From the NCBI RefSeq assembly GCF_004348545.1, contig NZ_SMKL01000010.1, positions 1 to 64,000 of the forward strand: DNA of 64,000 nucleotides, in the 5' to 3' direction. Position numbers and translations under genes: made by a program. Source of the stretch: Jiangella ureilytica. GTDB taxonomy: Bacteria; Actinomycetota; Actinomycetes; Jiangellales; Jiangellaceae. Position 1 is the stretch's first letter. Each line of letters starts with the position of its first letter. Shown here piece after piece: positions 40,821 through 59,630 of this stretch. Below the pieces are notes generated by a model. It saw only the letters and a program-made list of their open reading frames with translations. It searched no databases and was not told the origin of the DNA.

Positions 40821-42170
40821 ATGAGTCTCAAGGCCATTGTGGGCGCGACGGTCATCGACGGCACCGGCGGGAAGCCGGTCCCCGACGCCGTCGTCCTCAT
40901 CGAGAACGACCGCGTTCGGTCGGTGTCGCCAGCGGCGGACACCGTCGTCCCGGAGCAGGCCGAGGTGATCGACGCCGCCGGACGGTACGTGATCCCCGGG
41001 CTGATGGACGCCAATGTGCACCTGTTCGCCGGGACCGTCCCCGACGTGCTGATCGAGTACGCCGGCCGGTATGCCGAGTTCGTCGAGGAGGCGGCACAGG
41101 TCACGTTGCGCGCCGGTGTCACGACGGTGTTCGACACGTGGGGTCCGTTGCGGCCGACGATGACGGTACGCGACGCGATCAACCGCGGCGAGACCGTCGG
41201 CAGCCGCATCTACGCCGGTGGGAACATCATCGGGCTCGGCGGCCCGCTGTCGCCGGACTTCTTCTCTCCCGGCGACGTGCTGGCGAAGGAGACCGTCGAT
41301 CGCATCAACCGGCAGTGGGAGGAGGGCGTCGGCGACGACCTGCTGTGGCTGACGCCTGAGCAGGTCCGGATGCGGGTCCGCGACTACATCGAGCGCTCCG
41401 GCGTCGACTTCATCAAGTACGCCGGCAGCGGGCACAAGGAGATGCAGTTCATCACGTTCTCCGAGCCGACGCAGCGGGCCATCGTCGAGGAGGGGCACCG
41501 GGCCGGCATCACCGTCCAAGCGCACACGACGACGGTGGAGAGCCTGCGGATGGAGATCGAGGCCGGCGCCGACCTGCTCCAGCACGGCGACGTGACCGGG
41601 CGCGAGGCGATGCCGGAGGAGACGCTCAAGACGATCGTCGACCGCGTGCTCCCGGTCGCGGCACTGGTCTGCACCGAGCGCTACCAGGCGTGGGTGAAGG
41701 AGAACGGCGGCGAGATCCTGAGCATCGTCCACGAGAAGAAGGACGAGAACGACCGCCGGCTCATCGAGGCCGGGGCACGGCTGCTGCTCACCACCGACGC
41801 GTTCGCCTGGGGGCCGCGCGTACTCGACCACCCGCTGCTGTCCAAGCTGCTGAAGAGCCCGGACACCCCGACCCAGCTGGGCGAGTCGCACGTGTACTGG
41901 CTCCAGGGCGCGCTCGAGCGCGGCATGGCGCCGATGGAGGCGCTGTTGTCGGCCACCCGCTACATCGCCGAGGCCTACCACGTCGCCGACGAGGTCGGCA
42001 CCCTCGAACCGGGCAAGCGTGCCGACCTGGTGATCCTCGAGGCCGACCCGCTGGCCGACGTGCAGAACTACACCCGCATCGTCGACGTGATCAAGGACGG
42101 CGCCGTCGTCGACCGCGACGCCCTCCCGCTGCGCCCCGTCCTCATCGAGCCCAGCACCACTGCTGCTTAG
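40821..42170 (+). CDS. Amidohydrolase / metal-dependent dipeptidase-like (second paralogue)
   Basis: 449 residues; ATG 40821 is preceded by GGGGAGAGG. Same architecture as the copies at 27358 and 58296: Asn65-x-His67 in MDANVHL, Lys199 in DFIKY, His in VQAHT, His in LLQHGD, Asp in LLTTDA. Its last 237 bases before the C-terminal tail (41904-42140) are identical but for one base to the copy at 58311-58547, much closer than the rest of the gene. It precedes the fourth lipoprotein by nine bases. Confidence 0.9.
   Translation: MSLKAIVGATVIDGTGGKPVPDAVVLIENDRVRSVSPAADTVVPEQAEVIDAAGRYVIPGLMDANVHLFAGTVPDVLIEYAGRYAEFVEEAAQVTLRAGVTTVFDTWGPLRPTMTVRDAINRGETVGSRIYAGGNIIGLGGPLSPDFFSPGDVLAKETVDRINRQWEEGVGDDLLWLTPEQVRMRVRDYIERSGVDFIKYAGSGHKEMQFITFSEPTQRAIVEEGHRAGITVQAHTTTVESLRMEIEAGADLLQHGDVTGREAMPEETLKTIVDRVLPVAALVCTERYQAWVKENGGEILSIVHEKKDENDRRLIEAGARLLLTTDAFAWGPRVLDHPLLSKLLKSPDTPTQLGESHVYWLQGALERGMAPMEALLSATRYIAEAYHVADEVGTLEPGKRADLVILEADPLADVQNYTRIVDVIKDGAVVDRDALPLRPVLIEPSTTAA
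41904..42140 (+). repeat. Inverted repeat arm shared with 58311-58547
   Basis: 237 bases inside the amidohydrolase gene match the complement of 58311-58547 with one mismatch (G at 42095). Sequence on either side diverges at once. The third paralogue (27358) is clearly different in the same segment. Confidence 0.85.
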
Positions 42171-45489: not shown

Positions 45490-46863
45490 TCAGCGGGGCT
45501 CGGCGCCTGCCTCCACGCGGGGGTTCGCGCGGACGCCGTGGTGGAGGTACCGGGAGCCGTCGGCGAGGGTGTAGAAGAACACCGGCTCCCACTGCGTGGC
45601 CCCCTCCGGCCGGGTGGCGAAATGGCCCTCGGCCACCGGCACCAGCAGGTGCTCGCGGCTCAGCTCGGGGAGCAGGTCGCCGAGCAGGCCGTTGACCGTC
45701 ACCCGCATCGCCAGGGATCCGTCGCGCGCGAAGACGTCGGTGTCGAAGCCGGCACGGGAGTACCGGCCGACGTACGGCCGCAGGTCGACCGCAGGCGGGT
45801 CGGCGGGCGGGGCGAACGGCGCCGGCATGGTGACGTCCGCCAGTTCGGCGAACAGCTCGCGGTACATGCCTGCGGTGTCGCCGCCGTTGGTGAGCAGGCA
45901 CACGGCGACGTCCCGCTCCGGCAGCACCCGCAGGTAGGCGCGCTGGCCGACGGTGCCGCCGTCGTGGCCGACGAGGCGGTGGCCGTCCCAGTCGAAGCGG
46001 ATCCAGCCCAGCCCCCACGAGTCGCCGATGGCGGCCGGGTCGGGGACGTCGACCTGGTGCTCGGTCATCGCCGCCGCGGACGCCGTCGAGAGCAGCCGGG
46101 TGCCGTCCGGGGCGGCTCCGCCGGCCAGGTGCATCCGGGCGAAGGCCAGCACGTCGTGCACGCGCGCCGTGATCCGTCCGGCCGGACCCCCGCTGCGGGG
46201 CAGCGCCCACACTGTGGTCGGCGCCAGGGAACGGCCCGGCTCCCCGAGGTGGCCGACGGCGGCACGGTGCAGGATGGCGTCCTCGGGCAGCGTGACGGTG
46301 GCCATCAGCCCCAGCGGTGCCGCGATGCGCTCACGGATCGCGGCGTCCCACGTCAGCCCGGTGAGCACCTCGACGATCCGTCCGGCGACGGAGAAGCCGG
46401 AGTTGCAGTAGGAGAACGTGGCGTCCAGAGGGTGCGTCTGCGCAACGTCGGCCAGCCGCTCGACGTAGCGCTCGACGGCGTCGTCGCCGCGGCCGGTGTC
46501 GACGAACACGTCGCCGTCGATGCCGCTGGTGTGGGTGAGCAGGTGCCGGACGGTGACCGTGCGGGTGACTCCAGGGTCGGCGACGGCGAAGCCGGGCAGG
46601 ACGTCGACCACCGGGGTGTCGAGCGCGAGCCGCCCCTCGTCGACCAGCTGCATGATCAGTGTGGCGGTCCAGACCTTGGTGATGGAGCCTATCTGGAACA
46701 CCGAGTCCGGGGTGGCCGGGACCAGGGTGGCCCGGCTGAGCACACCGGCGGCGACGTCGACGATCTGCCCGTCCCGCAGCACGCCCAGCGTGGCGCCCGG
46801 CACGTCGAAGCGTCCGATCAGCTCGGTCAGCCAGGCCCGCAGCCGGGCGGCGTCCATGGTCAT
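45490..46863 (-). CDS. S12 serine hydrolase (beta-lactamase/D-aminopeptidase fold), copy 1
   Basis: 457 residues. The penicillin-binding fold shows Ser60-x-x-Lys63 in GSITK, the YCN motif (Tyr-x-Asn) in DATFSYCNSG, and HDGG as the third motif. Family S12 includes D-stereospecific aminopeptidases, D-Ala-D-Ala carboxypeptidases and class C beta-lactamases. There is no signal peptide, which argues against a defensive beta-lactamase. A C-terminal lipocalin-like domain (DLRPYVGRYSR onward) is present, as in D-aminopeptidases. Last gene of the seven-gene operon starting at 55027; ATGA overlap with copy 2. Confidence 0.9.
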   Translation of the reverse strand: MTMDAARLRAWLTELIGRFDVPGATLGVLRDGQIVDVAAGVLSRATLVPATPDSVFQIGSITKVWTATLIMQLVDEGRLALDTPVVDVLPGFAVADPGVTRTVTVRHLLTHTSGIDGDVFVDTGRGDDAVERYVERLADVAQTHPLDATFSYCNSGFSVAGRIVEVLTGLTWDAAIRERIAAPLGLMATVTLPEDAILHRAAVGHLGEPGRSLAPTTVWALPRSGGPAGRITARVHDVLAFARMHLAGGAAPDGTRLLSTASAAAMTEHQVDVPDPAAIGDSWGLGWIRFDWDGHRLVGHDGGTVGQRAYLRVLPERDVAVCLLTNGGDTAGMYRELFAELADVTMPAPFAPPADPPAVDLRPYVGRYSRAGFDTDVFARDGSLAMRVTVNGLLGDLLPELSREHLLVPVAEGHFATRPEGATQWEPVFFYTLADGSRYLHHGVRANPRVEAGAEPR

Positions 46864-48272
46864 CGTGCGGCCGCCTCGCCGGTGCGGCGGGCCAGGCGCT
46901 TGCCCAGGTAGACCAGCTCGTAGCCGTCCGGGCCGGGCTCGGAGAAGTGCAGGGCGGTGGCGCTGCCGGCGAACGCCGGGCCGTGTGACACCAGCGTGTC
47001 CTCCGCCGTGGGTACGGCACGGAACTCCTTGACGTCGGTCATGGTGGGGAAGGTCGCCCCGACGAGGTCGTCGGGCAGCGGGACGAGGCGCACGAGGACG
47101 CCGTCGCCGTCGGGTGAGGGGACGATCTCGACCCGCTGTGTCACCCGCTGGTACCTGCCGAGGAACGGGGCGAGGTCGACGTCCGTGCGCACGGCGCCGA
47201 TGACCGGCGGGGCCAGCGGCGACGGACCGGCCGGCAGGACGGCGTCGACCAGGTCGGCGAGCGGCGGCATGCCGGCGATGCTGTTCACGAACGCGGCCAG
47301 CGCGAGGTCGTCGTCGGGGGAGACGAGGGCGTAGGCGCAGCCGCCGGGGGAGCCGCCGCCGTGGGAGAAGACGCGCCGGCCGTCCTGCTCGTTGTACATC
47401 CAGCCCAGGCCGAACCCGCTGGCCGGCCCGGTCGGGTCGGCGCTGGTGGGCGTCCGCATCGCCTGCGCCGACGCCGCGCTCAGCACCCGCGCGTCGCCGC
47501 CACCGTCCGGCACCAGCCCGTCGGCCAGGTGCATGCGCAGGAACGTCAGCGTGTCATCCACGGTGGTGACGATGGTGGTGCCCGGCGCGGCCCACGCGCT
47601 CGGGTACATGAACTGCGGCGTCGGCTCGTGCCGGCCCGCCGCCGCCGGGAAGCTGCCGATCGCGGTCCGGTGCAGGATCGCCTCGCGCGGCGAGAACACC
47701 GTGCGGCGCAGACCGAGCGGCTCGATCACCCGCTCCTGGAGCAGCTCGTGGAACGTGCGGCCGCTCAGCCGGCGCAGCACGATCTCGGCGACGATCCAGC
47801 CGATGTTGTTGTACGACGACACCACGCCGGGCTCGGTGAGCTTCGGCGCCGCCGCGATCCGCGGCAGGTAGTCCTCGACGCCGTCCGGGTACTCGCGGGA
47901 GTCGACGAACAGGTCGCTGGTGTCGACGCCGTTGGAGTGGTTCATCAGGTGGCGCACCGTCAGCGTCTTGGCCACCTCGACGTCGGCGCCGAACTGGACC
48001 TCCGGGGCGTACGCGACCAGTGGCAGGTCGAGGTCCAGCGTGCCCTCCTCGACGAACGTCATGAGCAAGGTGGACAGCCAGACCTTGGTGATCGACCCGG
48101 TGAGGTAGCCGGTGTCCGCGGCGAACGGCTGGCCGGTGTTGAGGTTGGCCACGCCGGCGGCCGCGGTCGCCCGTACGCCGCCCTGCCAGGTGGCCACCAC
48201 CATGCCGGGCACGCCGTGCTTCTCGACGATCCGGTCGACTTCCTTCTGCAGCTCGCTCGGGCTCAGCGACAT
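46860..48272 (-). CDS. S12 serine hydrolase, copy 2
   Basis: 470 residues; GAGAGGACGAGAACG precedes the ATG. Ser60-x-x-Lys63 (GSITK), YNN in SSYNNIGW and HGGGSPGG are in place. It shares an N-terminal GVANLNTGQPF-like stretch with copy 3, so those two are probably a tandem duplication. The C-terminal beta domain begins near DLAPFLGRYQR. Cytoplasmic by lack of a signal peptide. Role as for copy 1; peptides ending or starting with D-residues are the best guess. Confidence 0.9.
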   Translation of the reverse strand: MSLSPSELQKEVDRIVEKHGVPGMVVATWQGGVRATAAAGVANLNTGQPFAADTGYLTGSITKVWLSTLLMTFVEEGTLDLDLPLVAYAPEVQFGADVEVAKTLTVRHLMNHSNGVDTSDLFVDSREYPDGVEDYLPRIAAAPKLTEPGVVSSYNNIGWIVAEIVLRRLSGRTFHELLQERVIEPLGLRRTVFSPREAILHRTAIGSFPAAAGRHEPTPQFMYPSAWAAPGTTIVTTVDDTLTFLRMHLADGLVPDGGGDARVLSAASAQAMRTPTSADPTGPASGFGLGWMYNEQDGRRVFSHGGGSPGGCAYALVSPDDDLALAAFVNSIAGMPPLADLVDAVLPAGPSPLAPPVIGAVRTDVDLAPFLGRYQRVTQRVEIVPSPDGDGVLVRLVPLPDDLVGATFPTMTDVKEFRAVPTAEDTLVSHGPAFAGSATALHFSEPGPDGYELVYLGKRLARRTGEAAAR

Positions 48273-48287
48273 CGTTCTCGTCCTCTC

Positions 48288-49709
48288 TCAGGCGGTCTTC
48301 GGGTAGTAGCGGAATCCGGTGTGCAGGCCGGCCCGGCGGGCGCCGTCGGCGGGCACGGCGGCGACCAGGCCCATGCGCCCGTAGAAGCCGCCCAGGGCCG
48401 ACTCGTCGGCGTCGGCGGGCGCGTACTGCCCGGGCGCGACGCCGCGGTAGGGCAGCGGCACCGGATCGGTCATACCGGTCGCGTAGGCGAGGCTCTGCGC
48501 CGCGTGGTCCTCGTCGTAGGGCTCGCTGTGGCGGGTGAGGACCAGCGCGTCGCCGTCCTTCTCGGCCACGATGCGGGTCTGGAACGCCCGGTACTCGCCG
48601 GCGACGGCGTCGTGGGCCGGCGTGGGCGTGACGTCGATCGGCGCGGTGACGGAGCGGCCGGTGAGCTCCTCGACCGCCGCGACGTGCAGCAGGTCGTTCA
48701 TCACCGCGCGGCCGCCACCGGTGGCGAAGCTGGCGATGACGGCGTCGTGCTCGGGCAGGATGCCGAAGCTGGAGACGCCGTTGGGCGAGCCGCCACCGTG
48801 CCACGGTGCCGTCGTGCCGGCGACGGGGAACAGCCACCAGCCCAGCCCCATCGGCGGGCCCTGCGGCAGGCCGAGGTCGAACGTCGGGGTCCGCATCGCG
48901 TCGACCCACTCCGTCGACAGCACTCGGGCGCCGTTCGGAGCGATCCCGCCGGAGAGGTGCATGCGGCCGAACGCCATGAGGTCGTCGACGGTGACGATCA
49001 GCGTGGAGCCGCCGCCGGCCAGCGACTCGCCGAGGGTGAAGCGCGGGGTGGCGCGCAGCGCGCCGGTCTCCGGGTCGGTGTACGCGCCGATGGCGGTGCG
49101 GCGCAGGAACGCCTGGGTCTGCACGCCCGTCGCGTCGGCCATGCCGCACGGCTCGAACAGCTCACGCTCGATGGCCAGCTCGAACGGCAGCCCGGTCTGC
49201 TCCTCGAGGATCCGCCCGGCCAGCACGAAGCCGGGGTTGGTGTAGTGGAGGTACGTGCCCGGCTCGAACAGGACGCCCATGCGCGGCAGGTGCTCGGTGT
49301 AGGAGCGGCTGGCGTCGCGGCCGCGGACCGGGGTCGGGCACAGGCCGTCGCTGTCGATGCCGTTGGTGTGGTTGACCAGCATGCGCACGGTGACCGCGGC
49401 GGCCGCGTCCGGGTCGGCCAGCGTGAACTCGGGGACGTATCGCCGCGCCGGAGCGTCGAGGTCGACCGCGCCCCGCTCCACGAGCCGCAGCAGGGCGGTC
49501 GTCACCAGGACCTTCGTCACCGAGCCCAGCAGGAAGCCGGTGTCGGTGGTGAACGGCTGGCCGGTGTTGAGATTGGCGCTGCCGTGGGCGACGGCGACCC
49601 GCTCGCCCCCGACGGACACCGCGACGACGGCGCCGGCCACCTTCAGCTCGGCGGAGCGGGTCTCGAGGACGTGGGTGAGTCGGTCGCGCAGGGTGCCGAG
49701 ATCGGACAT
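48288..49709 (-). CDS. S12 serine hydrolase, copy 3
   Basis: 473 residues; GAGAGGAAGG lies before the ATG. Motifs: Ser63-x-x-Lys66 in GSVTK, YTN in LHYTNPGF, HGGGSPN. N-terminal GSANLNTGQPF closely resembles copy 2. The C-terminal part, from about 370, contains HDAVAGEYRAFQ. It lies 22 bases after the second M19 gene and 15 bases before copy 2. Confidence 0.9.
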   Translation of the reverse strand: MSDLGTLRDRLTHVLETRSAELKVAGAVVAVSVGGERVAVAHGSANLNTGQPFTTDTGFLLGSVTKVLVTTALLRLVERGAVDLDAPARRYVPEFTLADPDAAAAVTVRMLVNHTNGIDSDGLCPTPVRGRDASRSYTEHLPRMGVLFEPGTYLHYTNPGFVLAGRILEEQTGLPFELAIERELFEPCGMADATGVQTQAFLRRTAIGAYTDPETGALRATPRFTLGESLAGGGSTLIVTVDDLMAFGRMHLSGGIAPNGARVLSTEWVDAMRTPTFDLGLPQGPPMGLGWWLFPVAGTTAPWHGGGSPNGVSSFGILPEHDAVIASFATGGGRAVMNDLLHVAAVEELTGRSVTAPIDVTPTPAHDAVAGEYRAFQTRIVAEKDGDALVLTRHSEPYDEDHAAQSLAYATGMTDPVPLPYRGVAPGQYAPADADESALGGFYGRMGLVAAVPADGARRAGLHTGFRYYPKTA

Positions 49710-49731
49710 GGGCGTGCCTTCCTCTCTCAGA

Positions 49732-50895
49732 TCAGCCGTTGACGGTCTCGAGGACCCGGAGGAAGTTCTCGCCGAGGATGCCGGCGATCTGCTCGTCGGT
49801 GTAGCCGCGCGCGACCAGGCCGCGGGTGATGTTGACCAGGTCGCGGTAGTCGCGGAACCCCTCCAGGGTGGCGGTGACGTCGATGTGGTGCTCGGGCCGG
49901 AACCCGTTGGCGTTGAGCAGTGGCACGATGAAGCGCTGCTGAAGATCGTGCGAGTAGCCCAGCGGCCAGTCGGTGCCGATGCCGGCGTGCTCCCAGCCGA
50001 CCAGCGCGACGATGTGGTCGATGTGGTCGAGCGTCAGCTCGATGGTCGGCCGCGGGTGGCCGGGCGGGGCGAGGAACGCCGGCACCGTCACGACACCGAT
50101 GACGCCGCCGGTCGCGGCGATGGCCCGGAGCTCGTCGTCGCTCTTCGCGCGGTCGTGCCGGTACAGGGCCTCGGCGCAGGTGTGCGTCGCGAGCACCGGC
50201 TGCTCCGACGCGGCGCAGGCGTCCAGCGTGGTCTGCCGTCCGCTGTGTGCGGTGTCGACGATGACGCCGACCCGGTTGCAGCGCCGGACGAACTCCAGGC
50301 CGAAATGGCTCAGCCCGGCGTCGTACCGCTCGGTGCAGCCGGTGCCGACGAAGGTCATCGTGTTGTAGGCGCAGTCGGCGGTGTGCAGCACGCCGAGCTC
50401 GTGTGCGGCGTCGACGAGGTCCAGGTCGCCGAGGCGTAGGCGGTTGAACTGGCACATGCCCCACAGCGCGTGCTCACCGTCGGCGTGCGCCGCGCGGATG
50501 TCGTCGGCCCGCCGCACCGCCCGCAGCCAGGGCAGCGTGCGCGTCGTCGCCGTCAGCGACGCCGCCGCCTCCAGGATGGCCGCCCGGTCCGAGAGCGTGC
50601 AGCCGGTGAGCCCGGCGGTGGCGCCGGAGGCGTCGAACAACTCGCGGTACTCGGGAAACTCGCCGCGCATCGCCTTGCCGACGAGGAAGTCGAAGGCCAC
50701 ACTCGCCGCCTGCCCGGGCGCGGCGGCCGCGGCCGCCTCGTACTCCTTGACCAGGTCGTCGGTCCAGACGTCGGGCGAGAACGGGCCCTGGTAGGTCATG
50801 TCGACGATGACGCTGTCACGGTGCAGCCGGGCGGCGCGGGCCTCCTGCTCGGCGGTGAGGCCGAAGTCGAACGTGCCGTACGTCTGCTCCGTCAT
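49732..50895 (-). CDS. M19 dipeptidase-like protein with lost zinc ligands (second M19)
   Basis: 387 residues from ATG 50895 (ATGA overlap with the lipoprotein gene). The M19 barrel is recognisable from VIVDTAHSG, LATHTCAEAL, HAGIGTDWPLG and GILGENFLRVL. But where the first copy has DTHND, this has DMTYQ (residues 32-36), so the HxD zinc motif is gone, and the bridging Glu position (ALEG) reads CQFN. The two later His ligands remain. It may bind one metal, use another chemistry or have a non-catalytic role. An insertion of about 45 residues follows the first strand. Confidence 0.85.
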   Translation of the reverse strand: MTEQTYGTFDFGLTAEQEARAARLHRDSVIVDMTYQGPFSPDVWTDDLVKEYEAAAAAAPGQAASVAFDFLVGKAMRGEFPEYRELFDASGATAGLTGCTLSDRAAILEAAASLTATTRTLPWLRAVRRADDIRAAHADGEHALWGMCQFNRLRLGDLDLVDAAHELGVLHTADCAYNTMTFVGTGCTERYDAGLSHFGLEFVRRCNRVGVIVDTAHSGRQTTLDACAASEQPVLATHTCAEALYRHDRAKSDDELRAIAATGGVIGVVTVPAFLAPPGHPRPTIELTLDHIDHIVALVGWEHAGIGTDWPLGYSHDLQQRFIVPLLNANGFRPEHHIDVTATLEGFRDYRDLVNITRGLVARGYTDEQIAGILGENFLRVLETVNG

Positions 50896-52490
50896 GACGT
50901 CTCCTCGAGGACGCGGATGCTGGTCGGGATCGGGAACGAGAACCCGGACACCTCCGCCTCGGCACCGCGCAGGTAGTAGAAGGAGGGCCGGAAGGCGATC
51001 GGCAGCGTGTTGACGTCGCGGAACAGCGCCTGCTCGGCCTGGTTCCAGAAGGTGCACGACTCCGGCGCGGTCAGCGTCTGCGCCTGCGCCACCAGCGACA
51101 GGTAGTCCTCGTTCTGGATACCGGAGACGTTGACGCCGTCGGGCGGGACCGGGCCGGAGGCGTATGGGATCCACTGGCTGGGCAGGTAGAAGCCGTAGCC
51201 GAGCACGAAGACGTCCCAGTTGCCGGCGGCGCCGAGTGCGACCTCGGTGTAGCCGTTGGGCCCGTCCAGGTTGAGGTCCACGGTCACGCCGAGCTGCTCC
51301 CACCGGTCGGCCACCAGCTCGGCCGTCGGCTGGTCGTACCGGTTGGTCGTGGGGATCGCGTGCAGGTCGATCGTGAGCGGCGTGCCGTCCTTCGCCCGCA
51401 TGCCGTCCGGGCCGCGCACCCAGCCGGCCTCGTCGAGCAGCGCCTCCGCGGCGGCGACGTCGAACTCGGGCAGCTGGCCGGACACGGTGTCGCCGTCGCA
51501 CACGTTCGGGTCGAGCGCGACCAGGCCGGTCGCCGCCGTGCCGGTCCCGCCGGTGGCGACGGGGACGAGCTCGTCGAGGTCGAGGGCCTGGGCGAGCGCG
51601 CGCCGGACGTCCTCGTCCTGCGTCACGCGGCCGTCGCGCTGGTTGAACCACAGCGCCACGCCGGAGTGGCCCTGGTCCTTGTCCAGGCCCTCGGCGTCCA
51701 GCCGCCGGTGGTCGTCGCCGGTGATCTGGGCGAAGTTCAGCTCGCCCGACAGCAGCAGGTTGGCTGCCGTCGTCTCGTCGGGGACGACGCGGACGACGAC
51801 GGTCTTCGGGGTGCCCGGCTCGTCGGTGCCGACGCCGTCGGGGCCCCACGCGTAGTCGTCGCGGCGGGTGAAGGTGAAGGTCTGCCCGGCGACCACGTCG
51901 GTGAGGACGAACGGCCCGGTGCCGTCGGAGCCGGCCTGCAGCATGGTCCGGTCCTGCATGCCCTTGGCGCAGACGATCGGCAGCACCCCGACGGTCTCGA
52001 GCAGGAAGCCGAACGGCTGCTCGGCCGTCACGGTCACCATGCGCGCGGCGTCGTCGCCGGTCGCGGTGACCGGGACGGTCGGCGTGTGCAGGCCATAGAG
52101 GACCGCGCCGTTGGCGGGGTCGCTGACGTAGGCGATGTCCGCTGCCACCTGCGACGCCGTGAGCGGCGAGCCGTCGGAGCACGTCACGTCGTCGCGCAGG
52201 GTGAAGGTCGCCGTCGTCGCGTCGACCGTCCACTCCTCGGCCAGACCGGAGACGAACTCGCCGTCCGGGGTCAGGTTGACCAGCGGGTCGTAGAGAAGGT
52301 CGTCGTAGCCGAGCGCGCCGGGGGAGTGGTACGGGTCGAAGGACACCGGGTCGGCGGGCGTCGACCGGGTGAAGGTGCCGTCGACGGCGTAGCGGACCTC
52401 GTCGTCCTGGCTCGCGGGCGAGTCCGACGACGCGCCGCAGCCGGTGACGAGGCAACCGGTGACGACGAGCAGTGCGAACGTTCTACGCAT
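50892..52490 (-). CDS. Orphan peptide-binding lipoprotein (family 5), fifth
   Basis: 532 residues from ATG 52490, with TGAGGAGA eight bases ahead; an in-frame GTG at 52505 is less likely. Lipobox at VTGCGASS. Shares DDVTCSDG, SDPANGA, LPIVCAKGM, DDYAWGPDGVGT, NLLLSGELN and SCTFWNQAE with the other orphans. Within an operon of four S12 and two M19 genes, so it probably brings in their substrate. Confidence 0.93.
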   Translation of the reverse strand: MRRTFALLVVTGCLVTGCGASSDSPASQDDEVRYAVDGTFTRSTPADPVSFDPYHSPGALGYDDLLYDPLVNLTPDGEFVSGLAEEWTVDATTATFTLRDDVTCSDGSPLTASQVAADIAYVSDPANGAVLYGLHTPTVPVTATGDDAARMVTVTAEQPFGFLLETVGVLPIVCAKGMQDRTMLQAGSDGTGPFVLTDVVAGQTFTFTRRDDYAWGPDGVGTDEPGTPKTVVVRVVPDETTAANLLLSGELNFAQITGDDHRRLDAEGLDKDQGHSGVALWFNQRDGRVTQDEDVRRALAQALDLDELVPVATGGTGTAATGLVALDPNVCDGDTVSGQLPEFDVAAAEALLDEAGWVRGPDGMRAKDGTPLTIDLHAIPTTNRYDQPTAELVADRWEQLGVTVDLNLDGPNGYTEVALGAAGNWDVFVLGYGFYLPSQWIPYASGPVPPDGVNVSGIQNEDYLSLVAQAQTLTAPESCTFWNQAEQALFRDVNTLPIAFRPSFYYLRGAEAEVSGFSFPIPTSIRVLEETS

Positions 52491-52517
52491 GAGAGGTCTC
52501 CTCACTCATCGGGGCGC

Positions 52518-54035
52518 TCACGACGCGGGCCGGAAGTCGGCGTCGAGGATGCTGAGCGCCTCGACGGACCCGCGCGGCCCCACGGCGAACCGGGCGAAGG
52601 GGCGCACGTAGGGCACGCCCAGCGGCCGGATCCGGAACACGTCGCCATGCCAGTGCTCGAGGCGGGCGGCGAACGCGCCCGCACCGGGGAACGCGAGCAG
52701 AAGACCGTCGTCGTCGGCGGTGATCCGGAGGCGTCCGTAGAGACGGTGGTGGTCCTCGTAGTCGCCGGCATACCGGTCCACCGCGAGGGTGGGCCGGGTG
52801 CCGCTCAGCCGGGCGGCGGTCAGCGCTGCCGCCTCCTCGTCGTGCGCCCGCTGGGCCGCGCGCTGACGGGTGGCCAGCTCCGCGCTCCAGCCGGTGAGTG
52901 GCCGGCCGAGCAGCTGGTCGAAGACCCACAGCGACACCGCCGTGTGGAAGGCGAACGGGTCGTAGCCATGGGCCGTGCGGTCGAAGCTCGCCCGGTCGCC
53001 GTTGGCGAGCACGGCCACGCCGAGCCGTCGGTCCGGGAGCAGCGAGACCTGGGCGGGGAAGCCGATGATGAGCCCGCCGTGCGACACGTGCGTCTCGCCG
53101 CGGTACCGCTCGTTGCGCCAGCCGAGCGCGTGGGTGGTGTTCTCGAACGGGAAGCGGGCGGTGTCGTGCGGGTTCTGCGGGCTGTGCATCTCGCGCAGCG
53201 TGTCGCGCCGGAGGATCGGCCGGCCGTCGTTCAGCTGCATGACCAGCCAGTTCGACAGGTCCGCAGCACTGGACACGACGGCGCCGGCGGCCGCGAGCGT
53301 GTCATAGCTCTGCCAGGGCATGCTGCGGGCCGGCCCGCCGCCGAGGCGGTGCGGCATCGCGACGTTGCCATCGTGCGCTTCGGTGCGCCGCACCTCGCCG
53401 GCCGGCGCGGTGCCGAAGAACGTGGCGGTGACGTGCTTGTCGTCCCAGTAGTCCAGGGCACTGGTGCCGCTGCGGGTCATGCCGAGCGGTTCGAAGATGC
53501 GGGTCCGGACCAGCTCCTGCCAGGTCGTGCCGGAGACGGCTTCGACGACCTGGCCGACGGCGCCGTACATGAGGTTGCTGTAGACGTACGAGGCGCGGAA
53601 CGGCTCGGCCTGGCGCTGGTAGCGCATCCGCCGCAGCGCCTCGTCTGCCCCCATGATCTCCAGGCCGGGCGCCCAGACGTCCACGTGGCCGGTCCGGTGC
53701 GCGAGCGCGTCGCGGACGGTGACGGCTCTGGTCAGCCACGGGTCGTGCAGCCGGAAGCCGGGGAGGTGGGCGGCCAGCGGGTCGTCCCAGCCCAGCCGCC
53801 CCTCGTCGACGAGGACGCCGGCCGCGGCGGCGGTGAACGCCTTGGACGTGGAGCCGAGCTGGAACAGCGTGTGCTCGTCGACGCGGTCGTCGCTGCCGGC
53901 CTCCTTGACGCCGTGGCCGCCGACGTGCAGTACGTCGGTCCCGTGCACGACGGCGACGGCGGCGCCGGGGATGCCCCAGTCGTGCAGGGCCTGCTCGACG
54001 TGCTCGTCCAGTCCGGTCAACGTCGTTGTGCCCAT
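52518..54035 (-). CDS. S12 serine hydrolase, copy 4
   Basis: 505 residues from ATG 54035 (GAGG ahead). Ser62-x-x-Lys65 in GSTSK, YSN in SYVYSNLMYG, and HGG in THVSHGGLIIG. It is clearly different from copies 1-3, with the AHRTGHVDVW segment typical of the ampC/EstB-like group and a C-terminal lipocalin-like domain (DRYAGDYEDHH). Second gene of the operon, 23 bases after the third M19 gene and 27 before the lipoprotein. Confidence 0.9.
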   Translation of the reverse strand: MGTTTLTGLDEHVEQALHDWGIPGAAVAVVHGTDVLHVGGHGVKEAGSDDRVDEHTLFQLGSTSKAFTAAAAGVLVDEGRLGWDDPLAAHLPGFRLHDPWLTRAVTVRDALAHRTGHVDVWAPGLEIMGADEALRRMRYQRQAEPFRASYVYSNLMYGAVGQVVEAVSGTTWQELVRTRIFEPLGMTRSGTSALDYWDDKHVTATFFGTAPAGEVRRTEAHDGNVAMPHRLGGGPARSMPWQSYDTLAAAGAVVSSAADLSNWLVMQLNDGRPILRRDTLREMHSPQNPHDTARFPFENTTHALGWRNERYRGETHVSHGGLIIGFPAQVSLLPDRRLGVAVLANGDRASFDRTAHGYDPFAFHTAVSLWVFDQLLGRPLTGWSAELATRQRAAQRAHDEEAAALTAARLSGTRPTLAVDRYAGDYEDHHRLYGRLRITADDDGLLLAFPGAGAFAARLEHWHGDVFRIRPLGVPYVRPFARFAVGPRGSVEALSILDADFRPAS

Positions 54036-54058
54036 TCGGAGCCCTCGCCTCCCCGCCG

Positions 54059-55027
54059 TCAGCGCCAGACCTGGCCGAAGACGCGCAGCCAGTTCTCGCC
54101 GAGGATGCCGCGCACGTCGTCGGCGCCGAACCCACGCTCGAACAGCCGCTCGGTGAGGCGCGGCAGGCCGGAGGCGTCCTCGAGCTCGGCGGGGTAGTGC
54201 CAGGGCGGCGGCGGGTAGCTCTCCCGTGACCACACGCCGTCGCGGATCAGCTGCTCGTAGACGTCCAGCGGCGGGTTCGGCGTCGTGTAGTCCAGGCCGA
54301 TCCCGACGTGCTCGGTGCCGACCAGGTCGGCGAGGTAGGCGATGTGGTCGATGTAGTCGTCGAGCGTGGGCTTGGCCGACGACACGACGAACGCGCCGTA
54401 GCCGTTGGCCCCGATGACGCCGCCGCCGGCCGCGAGGGCCCGGATGAGGTCGTCGGTCAGGTTGCGCCGGCTGTGGTGCACGGCGGCACAGTTCGAGTGC
54501 GACGCGATGACGGGCGCGGTGGAGGCCTCGACGGCGTCCAGGCTGGTCCGCAGGCCGGTGTGCGAGACGTCGACGATCATCCCGAGACGGTTCAGTTCGC
54601 CGACGACCTGGCGCCCGAACCGGCTGAGCCCGGCGTCGTTCGGCTCCTCGCACCCGTCGCCGACGGGGCTGCGGACGTTGTAGGTCAGCTGGACCACGCG
54701 CACGCCAAGCCGCCAGTACACCTCGACCAGGCCGGCGTCGTACTCGACCGGCTGCGTCCCCTGGAAGTGCAGGACCACGGCGAGCTTTCCGTCGCGCTTG
54801 GCGGCGCGGATGTCGTCGGCCGTGGTGGCGAGGACGAGGTCGTCGCGCTCGCGGAGGAACCGGTACGTGTCGCCCAGCAGGCCGACGGTGTCGCGGCAGC
54901 TCTCCCACGCGGCGACGCTGACGACGCAGGCGGTGGCGCCGCCGGCGATCCAGCTCGGGTACTGCTCACGCCACCACAGGGCCGGGCACGTGCCGTCGAT
55001 CACGATCGCGTCGGAGTGCAGGGTCAT
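54059..55027 (-). CDS. M19 dipeptidase-like protein with lost zinc ligands (third M19)
   Basis: 322 residues from ATG 55027 (GGGAG six bases ahead; GTG 55030 adjacent). M19 barrel with VDVSHTG, IASHSNC, HVGIGLDYT and GILGENWLRV. The HxD motif is replaced: DGTCP (residues 11-15) instead of DTHND, and the bridging Glu is Gln in LHFQGTQ. The changes parallel those in the second M19 copy (Thr for His, Gln for Glu), so this is a shared lineage and not random decay. First gene of the seven-gene operon behind the GntR operator at 55061. Confidence 0.87.
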   Translation of the reverse strand: MTLHSDAIVIDGTCPALWWREQYPSWIAGGATACVVSVAAWESCRDTVGLLGDTYRFLRERDDLVLATTADDIRAAKRDGKLAVVLHFQGTQPVEYDAGLVEVYWRLGVRVVQLTYNVRSPVGDGCEEPNDAGLSRFGRQVVGELNRLGMIVDVSHTGLRTSLDAVEASTAPVIASHSNCAAVHHSRRNLTDDLIRALAAGGGVIGANGYGAFVVSSAKPTLDDYIDHIAYLADLVGTEHVGIGLDYTTPNPPLDVYEQLIRDGVWSRESYPPPPWHYPAELEDASGLPRLTERLFERGFGADDVRGILGENWLRVFGQVWR

Positions 55028-55060
55028 CACTCGCTCCCGTTCGATCCGCCTGGTTGAACA

Positions 55061-55077
55061 TTAGGTGTAATACCTTA
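55061..55077. promoter_or_regulatory. GntR operator, copy A, over the M19/gntR divergent promoter
   Basis: TTAGGTGTAATACCTTA is a near-palindrome (AGGT-n5-ACCT). Its complement differs from copy B at 57282-57298 in only one of 17 bases. On the minus strand TTGACA (complement of 55087-55092) lies 17 bases ahead of TACACC, so the operator covers the -10 area of the operon promoter. This fits repression by the adjacent GntR protein. Confidence 0.75.
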
Positions 55078-55125
55078 CGTGTGTGGTGTCAAGCCTTTCT
55101 TCCGTGTCTGTGCGACAATGATCGG

Positions 55126-55827
55126 GTGAGTGAAGCGGTGACGGGTCTGGGTCAGGAGCTGGGCGGAGCCAAGCTGACGGCGTCGAGCCTGCGCGACCAG
55201 GCGCTGCGGGTGATCCGGGCACGGATCATCTCCGGCGAGCTGGCGCCGGGACGGCTGTATGCCCTCGGCGCGGTGGCGGAGCAGCTGGGCGTCTCGGTGA
55301 CGCCGGTGCGCGAGGCCGTCCTCGACCTCGCCCGCGAGGGCCTCGTCGAGCTGGCCCGCAACCGCGGCTTCCGGGTCCGCGAGATGACCGACGGCGACCT
55401 CGACGAGATCGTGGAGCTGCGGCGGATGATCGAGGTCTCAGCCGTGCGCACCATCGCCGAGCGCGGCCTGCTCGCCGACGCCGAGGCGGACCGCCTCCGC
55501 GAGATCGCCGCCGCCACCGAGAAGTGCGCCGCCGACGGCGACTGGGTCGGCTTCCTCGACAACGACCGCGACCTGCACATGGGCCTGCTCGCGCACCTCG
55601 GCAACGAGCGGCTGCTCACCATCGTCGGCTCATTGCGCGACCAGGGCCGGCTCTACGGCCTCGACCACGTCGCCGGCTCGGCCAGCCTCATGGAGTCCAC
55701 CCATGAGCACGACACCCTCATCGACGCCGTTGCCGCGGGGGAGGCCGACCTGGCAGCGGCCATCATGGATCGCCACCTGCGGCACACTCGCGGCATCTGG
55801 GCCGGTCACGCCGAACACTCCGGCTGA
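55126..55827 (+). CDS. GntR family regulator (FCD-type) of the D-peptide gene group
   Basis: 233 residues from GTG 55126; no clear Shine-Dalgarno, so possibly a leaderless or short-leader mRNA. The winged HTH (about 20-90) shows LRDQALRVIRARIISGELAP and VAEQLGVSVTPVREAVLDLA. The FCD domain has its usual metal-site pattern, with Asp in DNDRDLHMGLLAHL, and His in STHEHDTLI. It is divergent from the M19-S12 operon. The 17-bp operator occurs here and again at 57282, giving a clear local regulon. The ligand may be a D-amino acid or dipeptide, which is inference. Confidence 0.9.
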   Translation: MSEAVTGLGQELGGAKLTASSLRDQALRVIRARIISGELAPGRLYALGAVAEQLGVSVTPVREAVLDLAREGLVELARNRGFRVREMTDGDLDEIVELRRMIEVSAVRTIAERGLLADAEADRLREIAAATEKCAADGDWVGFLDNDRDLHMGLLAHLGNERLLTIVGSLRDQGRLYGLDHVAGSASLMESTHEHDTLIDAVAAGEADLAAAIMDRHLRHTRGIWAGHAEHSG

Positions 55828-55913
55828 AGCGGCCGCACTCCGGGTCGCCCTGCCCGTCCCCGCCTGCCGTCCCGACTGCGGTGATCCCGGGGCAACCGGG
55901 GTATCGATCGCCC

Positions 55914-55930
55914 CCGGGCATATCGCCCGG
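55914..55930. terminator. Short hairpin between convergent genes
   Basis: CCGGGC-ATATC-GCCCGG forms a 6-bp GC stem between the gntR stop (55827) and the oxidoreductase stop (55999). It could end transcription from either side. The rest of the gap shows nothing. Confidence 0.4.
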
Positions 55931-55998
55931 CAACTCCCCGTTGACCCCACGGCCACATGCCGGCGGGGACGGCGGGCAACGGGGGGTGCGGCGCGACG

Positions 55999-57246
55999 TC
56001 AGCGAAGCGGGTCGAAGGGCGCCAGTTCCGGTGGCAGCCGGCCGGTGACGATGCGCTCGGCCAGCAGCCGGCCGGTCGCTGGGCCGAGGGTGACGCCCCA
56101 CATGCCGTGGCCGCCGGTCACGAACACCCGCGGCGATCGGGTGGCGCCGACCAGCGGCAGGCCGTCGGGCGTGCAGGGGCGGGCGCCCACCCAGACGTCG
56201 CGCTGGTCGTCGACGTCTGCGCCGGTGAGCAGCGGGCGGACGGCGTCGGCGACGGCGCGGACGCGGCGGGCGTCGGGCGGGGCGTCGATGCGGCGGAACT
56301 CCATCATGCCGGCCAGCCGCAGCCGGCCGCCGATCGGCGTGCAGGCCACGCGTGCGGCCGGGAAGTACAGCGGCGTCGCCGGCAGCGGATCGACCGGCAC
56401 GCTGCAGCTGTAGCCCCGTCCGGCCATCACGACGCGGCGCACGCCGAACCGGCGGGCCAGTCGGCCGAGGGCCGCGCCGGTCGCGAGCACGACGGCATCG
56501 TAGGGCTCTGTCCCGGAGGGTATCCGCACCTCGACGTCCGCGCCGGTGTCGGCCACCGCGGTCACGGCGGCGGACTCGACACCGGTGCGGACGGTGCCGC
56601 CGCGGGCCGTGACGGACGCGGCCAGCGCGTGGACGAACCGGCCGGGGTCGACGTGGCGCTGGGCGTGCAGGCGGACCGCCGCGCCGACCGCTCCGGACAG
56701 TGCCGGCGCGGCCGCCCGCGCCTCGTCGCCCGTGAGCAGGTCGAACGCCGGCTCACGTCCGGCGGCGCGGAGGTGGTCCAGCTCGGCGAGCAGGACGTCG
56801 CGCTCCCGCTCGGTGCGATAGGCGGCGATGAGCGGACCCGCCCGGCCGCCCGCGCCGTCCGTACCCGCACCACCGGCCGCGAGCTGGTCGAAGGCCTCGA
56901 GCGCGAGCCGGTCCAGCGGGACGAACGTGCGCGCCCCGGCCGCCCAGCGGCGCTGGCTGCTGTGCCGGGCGAACCCCGTCAAGAACCGGAGCAGTTCCGG
57001 GTCCGGCCGCGGTGACACCGACACCGGCGACGCCGGGTTCAGCAGCGCACGCAGACCGAACGTCAGCACGCCGGGCGCGGGCAGCGGCGCGGTGAGGGCC
57101 GGCACGACCAGCCCGGCGTTGCCCCACGAGGCCCCGGCCGCGACACCGGTCCGGTCGAACACCGTGACGTCGACGTCGTGCTCCTGCAGGAACCAGGCGG
57201 TGGCCAAGCCGGTCACTCCGGCGCCGACGACGGCGACTCTGTTCAC
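55999..57246 (-). CDS. FAD-dependent amino acid oxidoreductase (DadA-like)
   Basis: 415 residues. N-terminal FAD motif VVGAGVTGLATAWFLQEHDV, then the DadA signature WGNAGLVVP, and a C-terminal WVGARPCTPDGLPLVGATR followed by GGHGMWGVTLGPATG, which are typical of D-amino acid dehydrogenases in the DAO superfamily. It would turn D-amino acids into keto acids with electrons going to the respiratory chain. Other amine substrates are possible. The promoter holds the GntR operator with a perfect TATAAT on this strand. Likely the last step for D-residues set free by the peptidases. Confidence 0.88.
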   Translation of the reverse strand: MNRVAVVGAGVTGLATAWFLQEHDVDVTVFDRTGVAAGASWGNAGLVVPALTAPLPAPGVLTFGLRALLNPASPVSVSPRPDPELLRFLTGFARHSSQRRWAAGARTFVPLDRLALEAFDQLAAGGAGTDGAGGRAGPLIAAYRTERERDVLLAELDHLRAAGREPAFDLLTGDEARAAAPALSGAVGAAVRLHAQRHVDPGRFVHALAASVTARGGTVRTGVESAAVTAVADTGADVEVRIPSGTEPYDAVVLATGAALGRLARRFGVRRVVMAGRGYSCSVPVDPLPATPLYFPAARVACTPIGGRLRLAGMMEFRRIDAPPDARRVRAVADAVRPLLTGADVDDQRDVWVGARPCTPDGLPLVGATRSPRVFVTGGHGMWGVTLGPATGRLLAERIVTGRLPPELAPFDPLR

Positions 57247-57281
57247 GACGGCACCCTCTCGACCGCGGACCGATTGGAATG

Positions 57282-57298
57282 TAAGGTATTATACCTAA
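57282..57298. promoter_or_regulatory. GntR operator, copy B, between oxidoreductase and cyclodeaminase genes
   Basis: TAAGGTATTATACCTAA has a perfect AGGTAT-T-ATACCT palindromic core. It contains TATAAT on the minus strand and TATTAT on the plus strand, so it lies exactly over the -10 boxes of both divergent genes. It matches copy A at 16 of 17 bases. Confidence 0.78.
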
Positions 57299-57313
57299 GG
57301 TTGAGGAGACGTG

Positions 57314-58309
57314 ATGACAGCGGACGTGATGGTCCTCTCGGCCGCCGACGTCGCGGCGTTGTTCGACCCGGAGACCGCCGTCGAGTCGCAGCGGGCGGCG
57401 TTCGAGGCGCTGGGGAAGGGCACGGCGGTGCAGCCGGACAAGCTGATGCTGCCGGCCGCGGACGACGGCGCCGTGGCGTTCTGCTACGCCGCCCGCCTGT
57501 CGACGGCGGACCCAGCGGTGTCCAAGTTCGGCAGCGTCACCCCGGCCAACGCGGCCGCGGGCCTGCCGACCATCGCCGCCCTCGTGGTCGTCCTCGACGC
57601 CGTCACCGGGCAGCCGGCCGCGGTCATGGACGGCACCGTCATCACCACGCGCCGCACCGCCGCCGCCAGCGCCGTGGCGATCGACGCGTTGGCCCGGGCC
57701 GACGCCGCCGAACTGGCCGTTGTGGGCTGCGGCGTCCAGGGCCACGAGCACGTCCGCATGCTGGCCCGGATCCGGCCGTTCCGGGCGGTCCGGCTGTGGG
57801 GACGGTCGGAGCGACGCCGCACCGCCGCGGCCCGCGATCTGGCCGCGGAGACCGGGCTGCCGGTTCGCGCGAGCGCCACCGCGCGCGAGGCGGTCGCCGG
57901 CGCGGACATCGTCGTGCTGTGCACGCTGAGCACGGAACCGCTGGTGGAACGGGGCTGGCTGGCGCCGGGCGCCACCGTCGTCTCGCTCGGGTCCATCGCG
58001 CCCGGCCGCTGCGAGGTCGGCCCGGACGTCGTCGCGGCCGCGCGCGTCGTGGTCGACGACCCGGCGACGGCGGCCGCGCACGCTGGCCCGATCGTGGCCG
58101 GGCTGCACGCCGGCACGCTCCTCCGTGACCAGCTGGTCGGCCTGGGTGACGTGCTCGTCGGCACCACGCCTGGCCGCACCGCGCCGGACGAGCTGGTCTT
58201 CTACAACAGCACCGGGCTCGGTGTGCAGGACGCCGCCGCGGCGGCCGCCGTCCTCGAGCGCGCCCGCCGCGCCGGTCTCGGCCACCGTCTGCCGCTCACC
58301 GGGTCGTGA
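57314..58309 (+). CDS. Ornithine cyclodeaminase / mu-crystallin family protein
   Basis: 331 residues; ATG 57314 has GAGGAG five bases ahead (GTG 57311 too close). The family shows Lys in PDKLMLP, the TTRRTAAASA anion-binding arginine segment, the NAD motif VVGCGVQGHEHV and YNSTGLGVQD near the end. Members include ornithine cyclodeaminase, L-alanine dehydrogenase and ketimine or pyrroline-carboxylate reductases. Beside a DadA-like enzyme, a reductase or dehydrogenase converting the imino/keto product back to an L-amino acid would fit, but the reaction is not readable. Its end overlaps the convergent amidohydrolase stop by 14 bases. Confidence 0.9.
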   Translation: MTADVMVLSAADVAALFDPETAVESQRAAFEALGKGTAVQPDKLMLPAADDGAVAFCYAARLSTADPAVSKFGSVTPANAAAGLPTIAALVVVLDAVTGQPAAVMDGTVITTRRTAAASAVAIDALARADAAELAVVGCGVQGHEHVRMLARIRPFRAVRLWGRSERRRTAAARDLAAETGLPVRASATAREAVAGADIVVLCTLSTEPLVERGWLAPGATVVSLGSIAPGRCEVGPDVVAAARVVVDDPATAAAHAGPIVAGLHAGTLLRDQLVGLGDVLVGTTPGRTAPDELVFYNSTGLGVQDAAAAAAVLERARRAGLGHRLPLTGS

Positions 58310-59630
58310 TGACGGGGCGCAGCGGGAGGGCGTCGCGGTCGACGACGGCGCCGTCTTTGATCACGTCGACGATGCGGGTGTAGTTCTGCACGTCGGCCAG
58401 CGGGTCGGCCTCGAGGATCACCAGGTCGGCACGCTTGCCCGGTTCGAGGGTGCCGACCTCGTCGGCGACGTGGTAGGCCTCGGCGATGTAGCGGGTGGCC
58501 GACAACAGCGCCTCCATCGGCGCCATGCCGCGCTCGAGCGCGCCCTGCAGCCAGAGGATGTGCGACTCGCCCAGCCGCGTCGGAGTGTCGGCCATGTCGC
58601 GGAACGGCGCGAAGGCCGGATGCCGCACGAGACGTGGCCCCCAGACGAACGCGTCGGTGGTGAGCAGCAGCCGGGCCCCGGCCTCGACGAGCCGCCGGTC
58701 GTTGCCGTCCATGTGCGCGTTGTACAGCCGGCGCATCATCGGGCTGCCGTGCTCGGCGACCCAGGCATGGTGGCGCTCAGTGAACAGCATCGCGGCGACT
58801 GGAAGCCCCCGGTCGACGATGGCCTTCAGCGTCTCCTCCGGCATCGGCTCCAAGCCGGTGATGTCGCCGTGCTGGAGCAGGTCGGCGCCGGCCTCGATCT
58901 CCATCCGCAGGCTCTCCACGGTCGTCGTGTGCGCCTGGACGGTGATGCCGGCCCGGTGCCCCTCCTCGACGATCGCCCGCTGTGCGGCCGCGGAGAAGGT
59001 GATGAACGCGGTCGCGTGCCCGCTGGCCGCGTACTTGAGGAAGTCCGGCCGGTGCCGGTCGACGTAGTCGCGGACCCGCGACCGCACCTGCTCCGGGGTG
59101 CGCCACAGCAGGTCGGCGCCGACACCGTGCTCCCACTGCCCGTTGATGCGCTCGACGGTGTCCGGCCCGAAGCCGTCGCCGGGTGAGAAGAAGTCCGGCG
59201 ACAGCGGCCCGCCGAAGCCGATGATGTTGCCGCCGACGTACATCCGGCTGCCGGCCGTGTCGCCGCGGTCGATCGCGTCACGGACGGCTTGCAGCGGACC
59301 CAGCGGGCCCCAGGTGTCGAAGACGGTGGTGATCCCGGCCCGCAGCGTGACCTGCGCCGCCTCCTCGACGAACGCGGCGTAGCCGCCCTCGTGCTCGATC
59401 AGGACGTCGGGCAGGGGGGCGCCGAACAGGTGGACGTTGGCGTCCATCAGCCCGGGGATCACGTACCGCCCGGCCGCGTCGATCACCTCGGCCTGCGCGG
59501 GCACGACGGTGTCCGCCGCCCGCGACACCGACCGGACGCGGTCGCCGTCGATGAGCACGACGGCGCCGGGCAGCGGCGCGCGCCCGGTGCCGTCGAGCAC
59601 GGTCGCGCCCGTGATCGCTCGCAGCATCAT
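58296..59630 (-). CDS. Amidohydrolase / metal-dependent dipeptidase-like (third paralogue)
   Basis: 444 residues; ATG 59630 (or 59627) follows GGAGGTGAG at the end of the S15 gene. Asn65-x-His67 in MDANVHL, Lys199 in DFLKY, His in VQAHT, His in LLQHGD and Asp in LLTTDA match the other two copies. The end of the gene is almost identical in DNA to the second copy (see repeat). Last gene of the operon that enters from the right edge. Confidence 0.9.
   Translation of the reverse strand: MMLRAITGATVLDGTGRAPLPGAVVLIDGDRVRSVSRAADTVVPAQAEVIDAAGRYVIPGLMDANVHLFGAPLPDVLIEHEGGYAAFVEEAAQVTLRAGITTVFDTWGPLGPLQAVRDAIDRGDTAGSRMYVGGNIIGFGGPLSPDFFSPGDGFGPDTVERINGQWEHGVGADLLWRTPEQVRSRVRDYVDRHRPDFLKYAASGHATAFITFSAAAQRAIVEEGHRAGITVQAHTTTVESLRMEIEAGADLLQHGDITGLEPMPEETLKAIVDRGLPVAAMLFTERHHAWVAEHGSPMMRRLYNAHMDGNDRRLVEAGARLLLTTDAFVWGPRLVRHPAFAPFRDMADTPTRLGESHILWLQGALERGMAPMEALLSATRYIAEAYHVADEVGTLEPGKRADLVILEADPLADVQNYTRIVDVIKDGAVVDRDALPLRPVITTR
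58311..58547 (-). repeat. Inverted repeat arm shared with 41904-42140
   Basis: Complement of this 237-base segment equals 41904-42140 except one base (a synonymous AAA/AAG lysine codon). Flanks differ at once on both sides. It lies 16 kb away in opposite orientation. Confidence 0.85.

Follow-up and report, generated by a model that had tools for sequence, protein, structure and literature searches.

Soil is rich in D-amino acids, which derive from cell walls and non-ribosomal peptides, and, to our knowledge, dedicated bacterial pathways leading from the uptake of D-peptides to their oxidation are poorly defined. Pab87, a CubicO peptidase of family S12 from Pyrococcus abyssi, prefers D-Ala-p-nitroanilide over the L form, trims D-Ala from muropeptides and adjoins peptide-transport genes, and its authors proposed a role in environmental D-peptide processing (PMC2651629). 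In the case of Pab87, such a role for S12 enzymes is already published. Here we analyze a locus of the soil actinomycete Jiangella ureilytica (Jiangellaceae) that encodes four S12 hydrolases (S12a–d), two M19-fold proteins (M19a, M19b), a family-5 solute-binding protein (SBPd), a GntR regulator, a DadA-like FAD oxidoreductase (DAO) and an enzyme of the ornithine cyclodeaminase/mu-crystallin family (OCD). The window, by which we mean the whole stretch of 64,000 nucleotides analyzed, is positions 1–64000 of one contig (C11) of a 6.35-Mb genome in 168 contigs. Among named relatives, J. anatolica is the closest (97% identity at M19a).

We tentatively propose that these genes form a GntR-controlled scavenging regulon for imported short peptides or amides, with D-residue peptides as the likeliest substrate. 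GntR would bind the palindrome TTAGGTRTAATACCTTAC and control its own gene, the operon M19a-S12a-SBPd-M19b-S12b-S12c-S12d, DAO and OCD, and the transporter genes OppB-OppCD-OppF. SBPd and Opp would bring a short peptide or an amide of an amino acid into the cell, to be cleaved by the cytoplasmic S12 hydrolases and M19-fold amidohydrolases. Oxidation of a released residue by the DadA-like enzyme would yield an imino or keto acid. A cyclic or free imine would be reduced to an L-amino acid by the OCD-like enzyme, with inversion from D to L as the net result. That an oxidase paired with an imine reductase may turn D- or imino acids into L-amino acids is suggested by what is known of the two families. 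The existence of the regulon and of a conserved module, as distinct from their substrate, we regard as highly probable.

The evidence that carries this proposal is the putative operator, a shared palindrome first spotted by eye in the two short intergenic gaps. TTAGGTRTAATACCTTAC lies between M19a and the GntR gene and again between the DadA-like and OCD-like genes. Searching with TTAGGTATAATACCTTAC at up to three mismatches, these are the only two sites in the 64 kb, where dinucleotide shuffles expect 0.00; the pair is no chance match. Across the whole genome TTAGGTRTAATACCTTAC has three sites at the same threshold, and a reversed-pattern control has one match. The third site (C11:66931-66948, equal to L035:2931-2948; two mismatches) coincides with the 3′ end of a TetR-like gene, about 130 bases upstream of OppB. 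All three sites are found at the same places in J. anatolica, the third with three mismatches. The operator is exact in J. asiatica and two other Jiangella genomes and has one mismatch in P. alkaliphila (Phytoactinopolyspora), and in these relatives it sits between SBP-OppBCDF and a divergent GntR-OCD-M19a cassette. GntR orthologues that are 47–50% identical head the cassette, and the identity is 72% in a Streptosporangiaceae metagenome-assembled genome (MAG). The same palindrome thus stands at each member promoter and is conserved in relatives, which is good evidence for a predicted GntR regulon that includes a peptide importer. Because the gap between DAO and OCD has the same operator as that between M19a and GntR, the claim of a first-pass annotation that one GntR regulon unites these genes holds in essence.

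The module recurs in other genomes in rearranged form. The cassette of J. asiatica, the two other Jiangella genomes and P. alkaliphila (L058, L059, L046/L047 and L048/L049) reads GntR-OCD-M19a-class-A-like hydrolase-creatininase-DAO, divergent from SBP-OppBCDF; a literature search found no description of an OCD-dipeptidase-creatininase cluster. J. asiatica has a second, DadA-like DAO downstream of opp, and the same operator is predicted to control SBP-opp-DAO. In Mycolicibacterium (M. moriokaense) OCD-DAO adjoins PucR-M19a, two Bacillota MAGs have M19a-DAO-S12-SBP-OppB, and the Streptosporangiaceae MAG has GntR, M19a, S15 and opp. A DAO gene is near 8 of 15 M19a-type loci and an OCD-like gene near 7 of 15, compared with 0 of 17 for both at other-clade M19 loci of related genomes, in 2 of which the metal ligands were checked. 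Fisher tests give p = 0.0006 (DAO) and 0.0019 (OCD), values that overstate independence, as the 17 controls fall into few orthologous groups. The order import, hydrolysis, oxidation, as the first-pass annotation had it, is supported by the conserved three-site operator and by the recurrence, in other lineages and phyla, of M19a next to DadA-like, OCD-like or S12 genes; the pathway may plausibly be D-specific.

Table 1 Features of the predicted regulon and its putative operators
Feature	Coordinates	Strand	Description
S12d	45490..46863	-	Serine hydrolase; PF00144 214 bits; SITK/YCN/HDG
S12c	46860..48272	-	Serine hydrolase; PF00144 194 bits; SITK/YNN/HGG
S12b	48288..49709	-	Serine hydrolase; PF00144; predicted beta-lactamase-fold domain and C-terminal beta domain
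M19b	49732..50895	-	Diverged M19-fold protein; PF01244 218 bits
SBPd	50892..52490	-	Family-5 solute-binding lipoprotein; PF00496 187 bits; lipobox
S12a	52518..54035	-	Serine hydrolase with C-terminal DUF3471; PF00144 199.9 bits, PF11954; STSK/YSN/HGG
M19a	54059..55027	-	M19-fold amidohydrolase, 2I5G type; PF01244 293 bits; alignments; model closest to 2i5g
Operator 1, TTAGGTGTAATACCTTAC	55061..55078	+	M19a/GntR gap; one mismatch to TTAGGTATAATACCTTAC
GntR	55126..55827	+	GntR/FCD transcriptional regulator; PF00392 (GntR helix-turn-helix) and PF07729 (FCD domain)
DAO	55999..57246	-	DadA-like FAD oxidoreductase, DAO fold; PF01266 189 bits
Operator 2, TTAGGTATAATACCTTAC	57281..57298	-	DAO/OCD gap; exact
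OCD	57314..58309	+	OCD/mu-crystallin family, imine-reductase-like; PF02423 212 bits
OppB-OppCD(fused)-OppF operon	L035:3082-7079		3 kb past window end; OppB is the first gene

Genes were called from codon-position GC, start sites and Pfam. The M19-like, binding-lipoprotein, GntR, DadA-like and OCD-like genes that had been placed in 49732-58309 were all confirmed by Pfam and the lipobox. All four S12 hydrolases exist as well, but only S12a lies within that range, the others occupying 45490-49709. M19a is the first gene of the minus-strand run, in which the start of M19b overlaps the stop of SBPd, and the GntR gene is divergent from it. DAO and OCD are outside the M19a operon, being divergent neighbors with a promoter gap of their own. 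The regulator's site gathers six hydrolases of the peptide-bond type and two amino-acid redox enzymes together with an importer. A sigma-70 promoter scan gave no match. Of the 17 S12-family genes of the genome, six fall in a 31-kb part of the contig (45–77 kb), the window holding four of these, and 7 of the 28 family-5 binding proteins of the genome are at 18–64 kb. The region turns over quickly, as seen from the corresponding segment of J. anatolica (L039 3582-15587, compared with 45490-58309 of the window), which lacks S12d (replaced by an additional binding-protein gene), DAO and the neighboring amidohydrolase.

Several findings weigh against D-peptides as substrate or against individual steps of the proposal, beginning with J. 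anatolica, where the regulon is kept with no DAO at this place. Both M19 proteins have the M19 fold, but alignments place TxP and Gln (M19a) or TxQ and Gln (M19b) where the M19 renal dipeptidases have the HxD motif and bridging Glu of their binuclear metal site. The second-site (beta-site) His pair, Asp and Arg are retained in both, and the His, His and catalytic Asp of M19a (H155, H176, D245) are invariant across 10 M19a-type proteins; we infer a one-metal site. With half of the M19 metal site missing from both proteins, an M19 dipeptidase activity should not be assumed. The predicted M19a model (pLDDT 94) is similar to all solved M19 structures (Z 37–46) and closest to 2I5G (Z 45.8), an M19-fold 'amidohydrolase' of P. 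aeruginosa that is also the closest solved relative (35% identity) and shows the same loss of HxD and change of Glu to Gln. A literature search found no published function for 2I5G and nothing on PA5396. Next closest are the Sco3058-type dipeptidases. These bacterial renal-dipeptidase-type enzymes share the fold, the His/His/Asp set and the Arg with M19a, but they have the full binuclear site, which M19a and M19b do not. Some of them were solved with L-Xaa-D-Ala mimics, and the binding of mimics of L-Leu-D-Ala and L-Ala-D-Ala by solved M19 enzymes is a point in favor of D-peptides. M19a-type genes, carried by 8 of 394 class genomes, are rare, and M19b was found among these genomes only in the source genome and J. 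anatolica. A third M19 gene of the window (M19c, 30459-31493, minus strand) has complete canonical ligands and belongs to a separate unit, S15-M19-SBP-amidohydrolase-S9.

All four S12 proteins contain SxxK, YxN and HxG, and none has an obvious signal peptide. Their catalytic residues are common to D-peptidases and esterases, and stereospecificity therefore cannot be read from them. The best match of S12b, by sequence and by structure, is the carboxylesterase IS11 (7SPN, PMC9972953). The predicted model (pLDDT 78) matches it over both domains (Z 41.7, 442 residues) and IS11 likewise has no signal peptide, but the identity is 26% and IS11, obtained in a screen on esters, is not known to belong to such a regulon. 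D-acting relatives follow the esterase, and in this respect the model favors D-peptides: Pab87 (Z 36.5), the Lip3 'DL-peptidase' (34.8) and SurE (34.4), with ClbP and D-amino-acid amidase also matched. Like S12b, Pab87 has an added C-terminal domain, the three catalytic motifs and peptide-transport genes nearby, but the identity is 25% over 333 residues. Strict membership of the window S12s in the CubicO (Pab87) family was rejected, as the motifs YAEAF/L and FFYLN and a C-terminal ERY (PMC2651629) are absent.

The best NCBIfam profile of DAO is that of the D-amino acid dehydrogenase DadA (NF001933), matched over the full length at 199.5 bits, below the cut-off of 383. DAO may at most work like DadA. 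It shares 61% identity with the DAO encoded downstream of opp in J. asiatica, and identities between this DadA-like type and the SolA-like type are 20–23%. The sister-cassette oxidase, by contrast, is of the SolA/sarcosine-oxidase type (in P. alkaliphila, 280 bits against a cut-off of 257 for the N-methyltryptophan-oxidase profile) and, together with the creatininase-like gene beside it, fits N-methyl or cyclic substrates. At the inspected DAO orthologues elsewhere in the family a PucR regulator recurs and the other neighbors vary, and these surroundings were dropped as an uninformative clue to substrate. The best solved relatives of OCD are the Delta1-pyrroline-2-carboxylate reductase 6t3e and an archaeal alanine dehydrogenase. 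Profiles of alanine dehydrogenase and pyrroline-carboxylate reductase outscore that of ornithine cyclodeaminase (NF005762, 111 bits against a cut-off of 350), and none is above its cut-off. Orthology of the window OCD to the cassette OCD was rejected (29–35% identity); the OCD family was therefore recruited more than once. The nearest solved relative of the family-5 lipoprotein SBPd, 6lu2, is titled 'substrate binding protein' and is not a named peptide binder. 6lu2 probably belongs to a hydrazide importer of a hydrazide-using Microbacterium; a literature search for 6LU3 found nothing.

An island at 17908-63979 contains seven family-5 binding proteins, two S15, two S9, one M24 and one DUF885 gene. 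Inside the window there is just one full Opp transporter, and several of the island binding proteins probably share one transporter. Three amidohydrolases (27358-28695, minus strand; 40821-42170, plus; 58296-59627, minus) are 65–78% alike and have the subtype VIII motif N-x-H...K...H...H...D, a subtype that includes molinate hydrolase (MolA), phenylurea hydrolase PuhB and piperine hydrolase PipM (PMC12753220). Each has genes for family-5 binding proteins as well as S15, S9 or DUF885 genes nearby and lacks a GntR operator. The amidohydrolase, S15, S9 and DUF885 units were accordingly rejected as members of the GntR regulon. ARAGORN calls a tRNA-Ala of 98 bases (25850-25947) within an S9 gene (25382-27355), a call that is probably spurious.

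In view of the N-methyl oxidase and creatininase of the sister cassettes, the subtype VIII amidohydrolases and the nearest relative of SBPd, the substrates could also be of N-alkyl or imino-acid type, or small amides and esters. In the former case, the regulon could take in peptides of proline type, N-alkylated peptides or cyclic amides and release secondary amino acids, with the FAD enzyme forming Delta1-imines that the OCD-like enzyme reduces or recycles. The affinity of OCD to pyrroline-2-carboxylate reductase and its scores on LhpI-type profiles agree with this, as do the oxidase above the N-methyltryptophan-oxidase cut-off and its creatininase-family neighbor, the three tertiary-amide (PipM/MolA/PuhB) type amidohydrolases (PMC12753220) and the X-Pro names of the island's S15, S9 and M24 families. 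We nevertheless find this account rather unlikely, given that the window oxidase is DadA-like and not SolA-like and that the amidohydrolase, S15 and S9 units have no GntR site. It is also unlikely, in our estimate, that the locus serves a general catabolism of ester or amide natural products or xenobiotics, in which the S12 proteins would be family-VIII-like carboxylesterases, the importer would take up small amides or conjugates, and stereochemistry would be incidental. The IS11 match of S12b, the unnamed nearest relative of SBPd, and the molinate/phenylurea-hydrolase-type amidohydrolases and CocE-like S15 genes would fit such a role. Against this, M19a recurs beside amino-acid oxidases and OCD-like enzymes in different phyla, which implies that an amino acid is released.

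Resistance to beta-lactams or their catabolism is very improbable. The S12 proteins fall within the class C beta-lactamase superfamily and the class-A-like gene of the relatives has SxxK, SDN and KTG. On the class C profile (NF033085), however, the S12 proteins score 55–82 bits against a cut-off of 415, and a beta-lactamase identity was rejected for them; the class-A-like gene reaches 86 bits against a cut-off of 200. As the first-pass annotation argued, the lack of export signals counts against periplasmic beta-lactam defense, but it does not count against ester or amide catabolism. A muropeptide-recycling role was set aside, as a scan of genes, though not an exhaustive one, revealed no muropeptide enzyme.

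Of all parts of the regulon, the unusual M19 group is the one least well explained. It is conceivable, though doubtful, that the 'half-site' enzymes of the M19a type form an amidohydrolase class of their own and anchor a dispersed regulon through which peptides containing D- or N-substituted residues are catabolized, its partners being interchangeable by lineage (S12 and a DadA-type oxidase, or a class-A-like hydrolase, a creatininase and a SolA-type oxidase). The operator joins an importer, hydrolases, an amino-acid oxidase and an imine-reductase-like enzyme as one testable unit, and that unit singles out a widespread M19-fold group without a known reaction.

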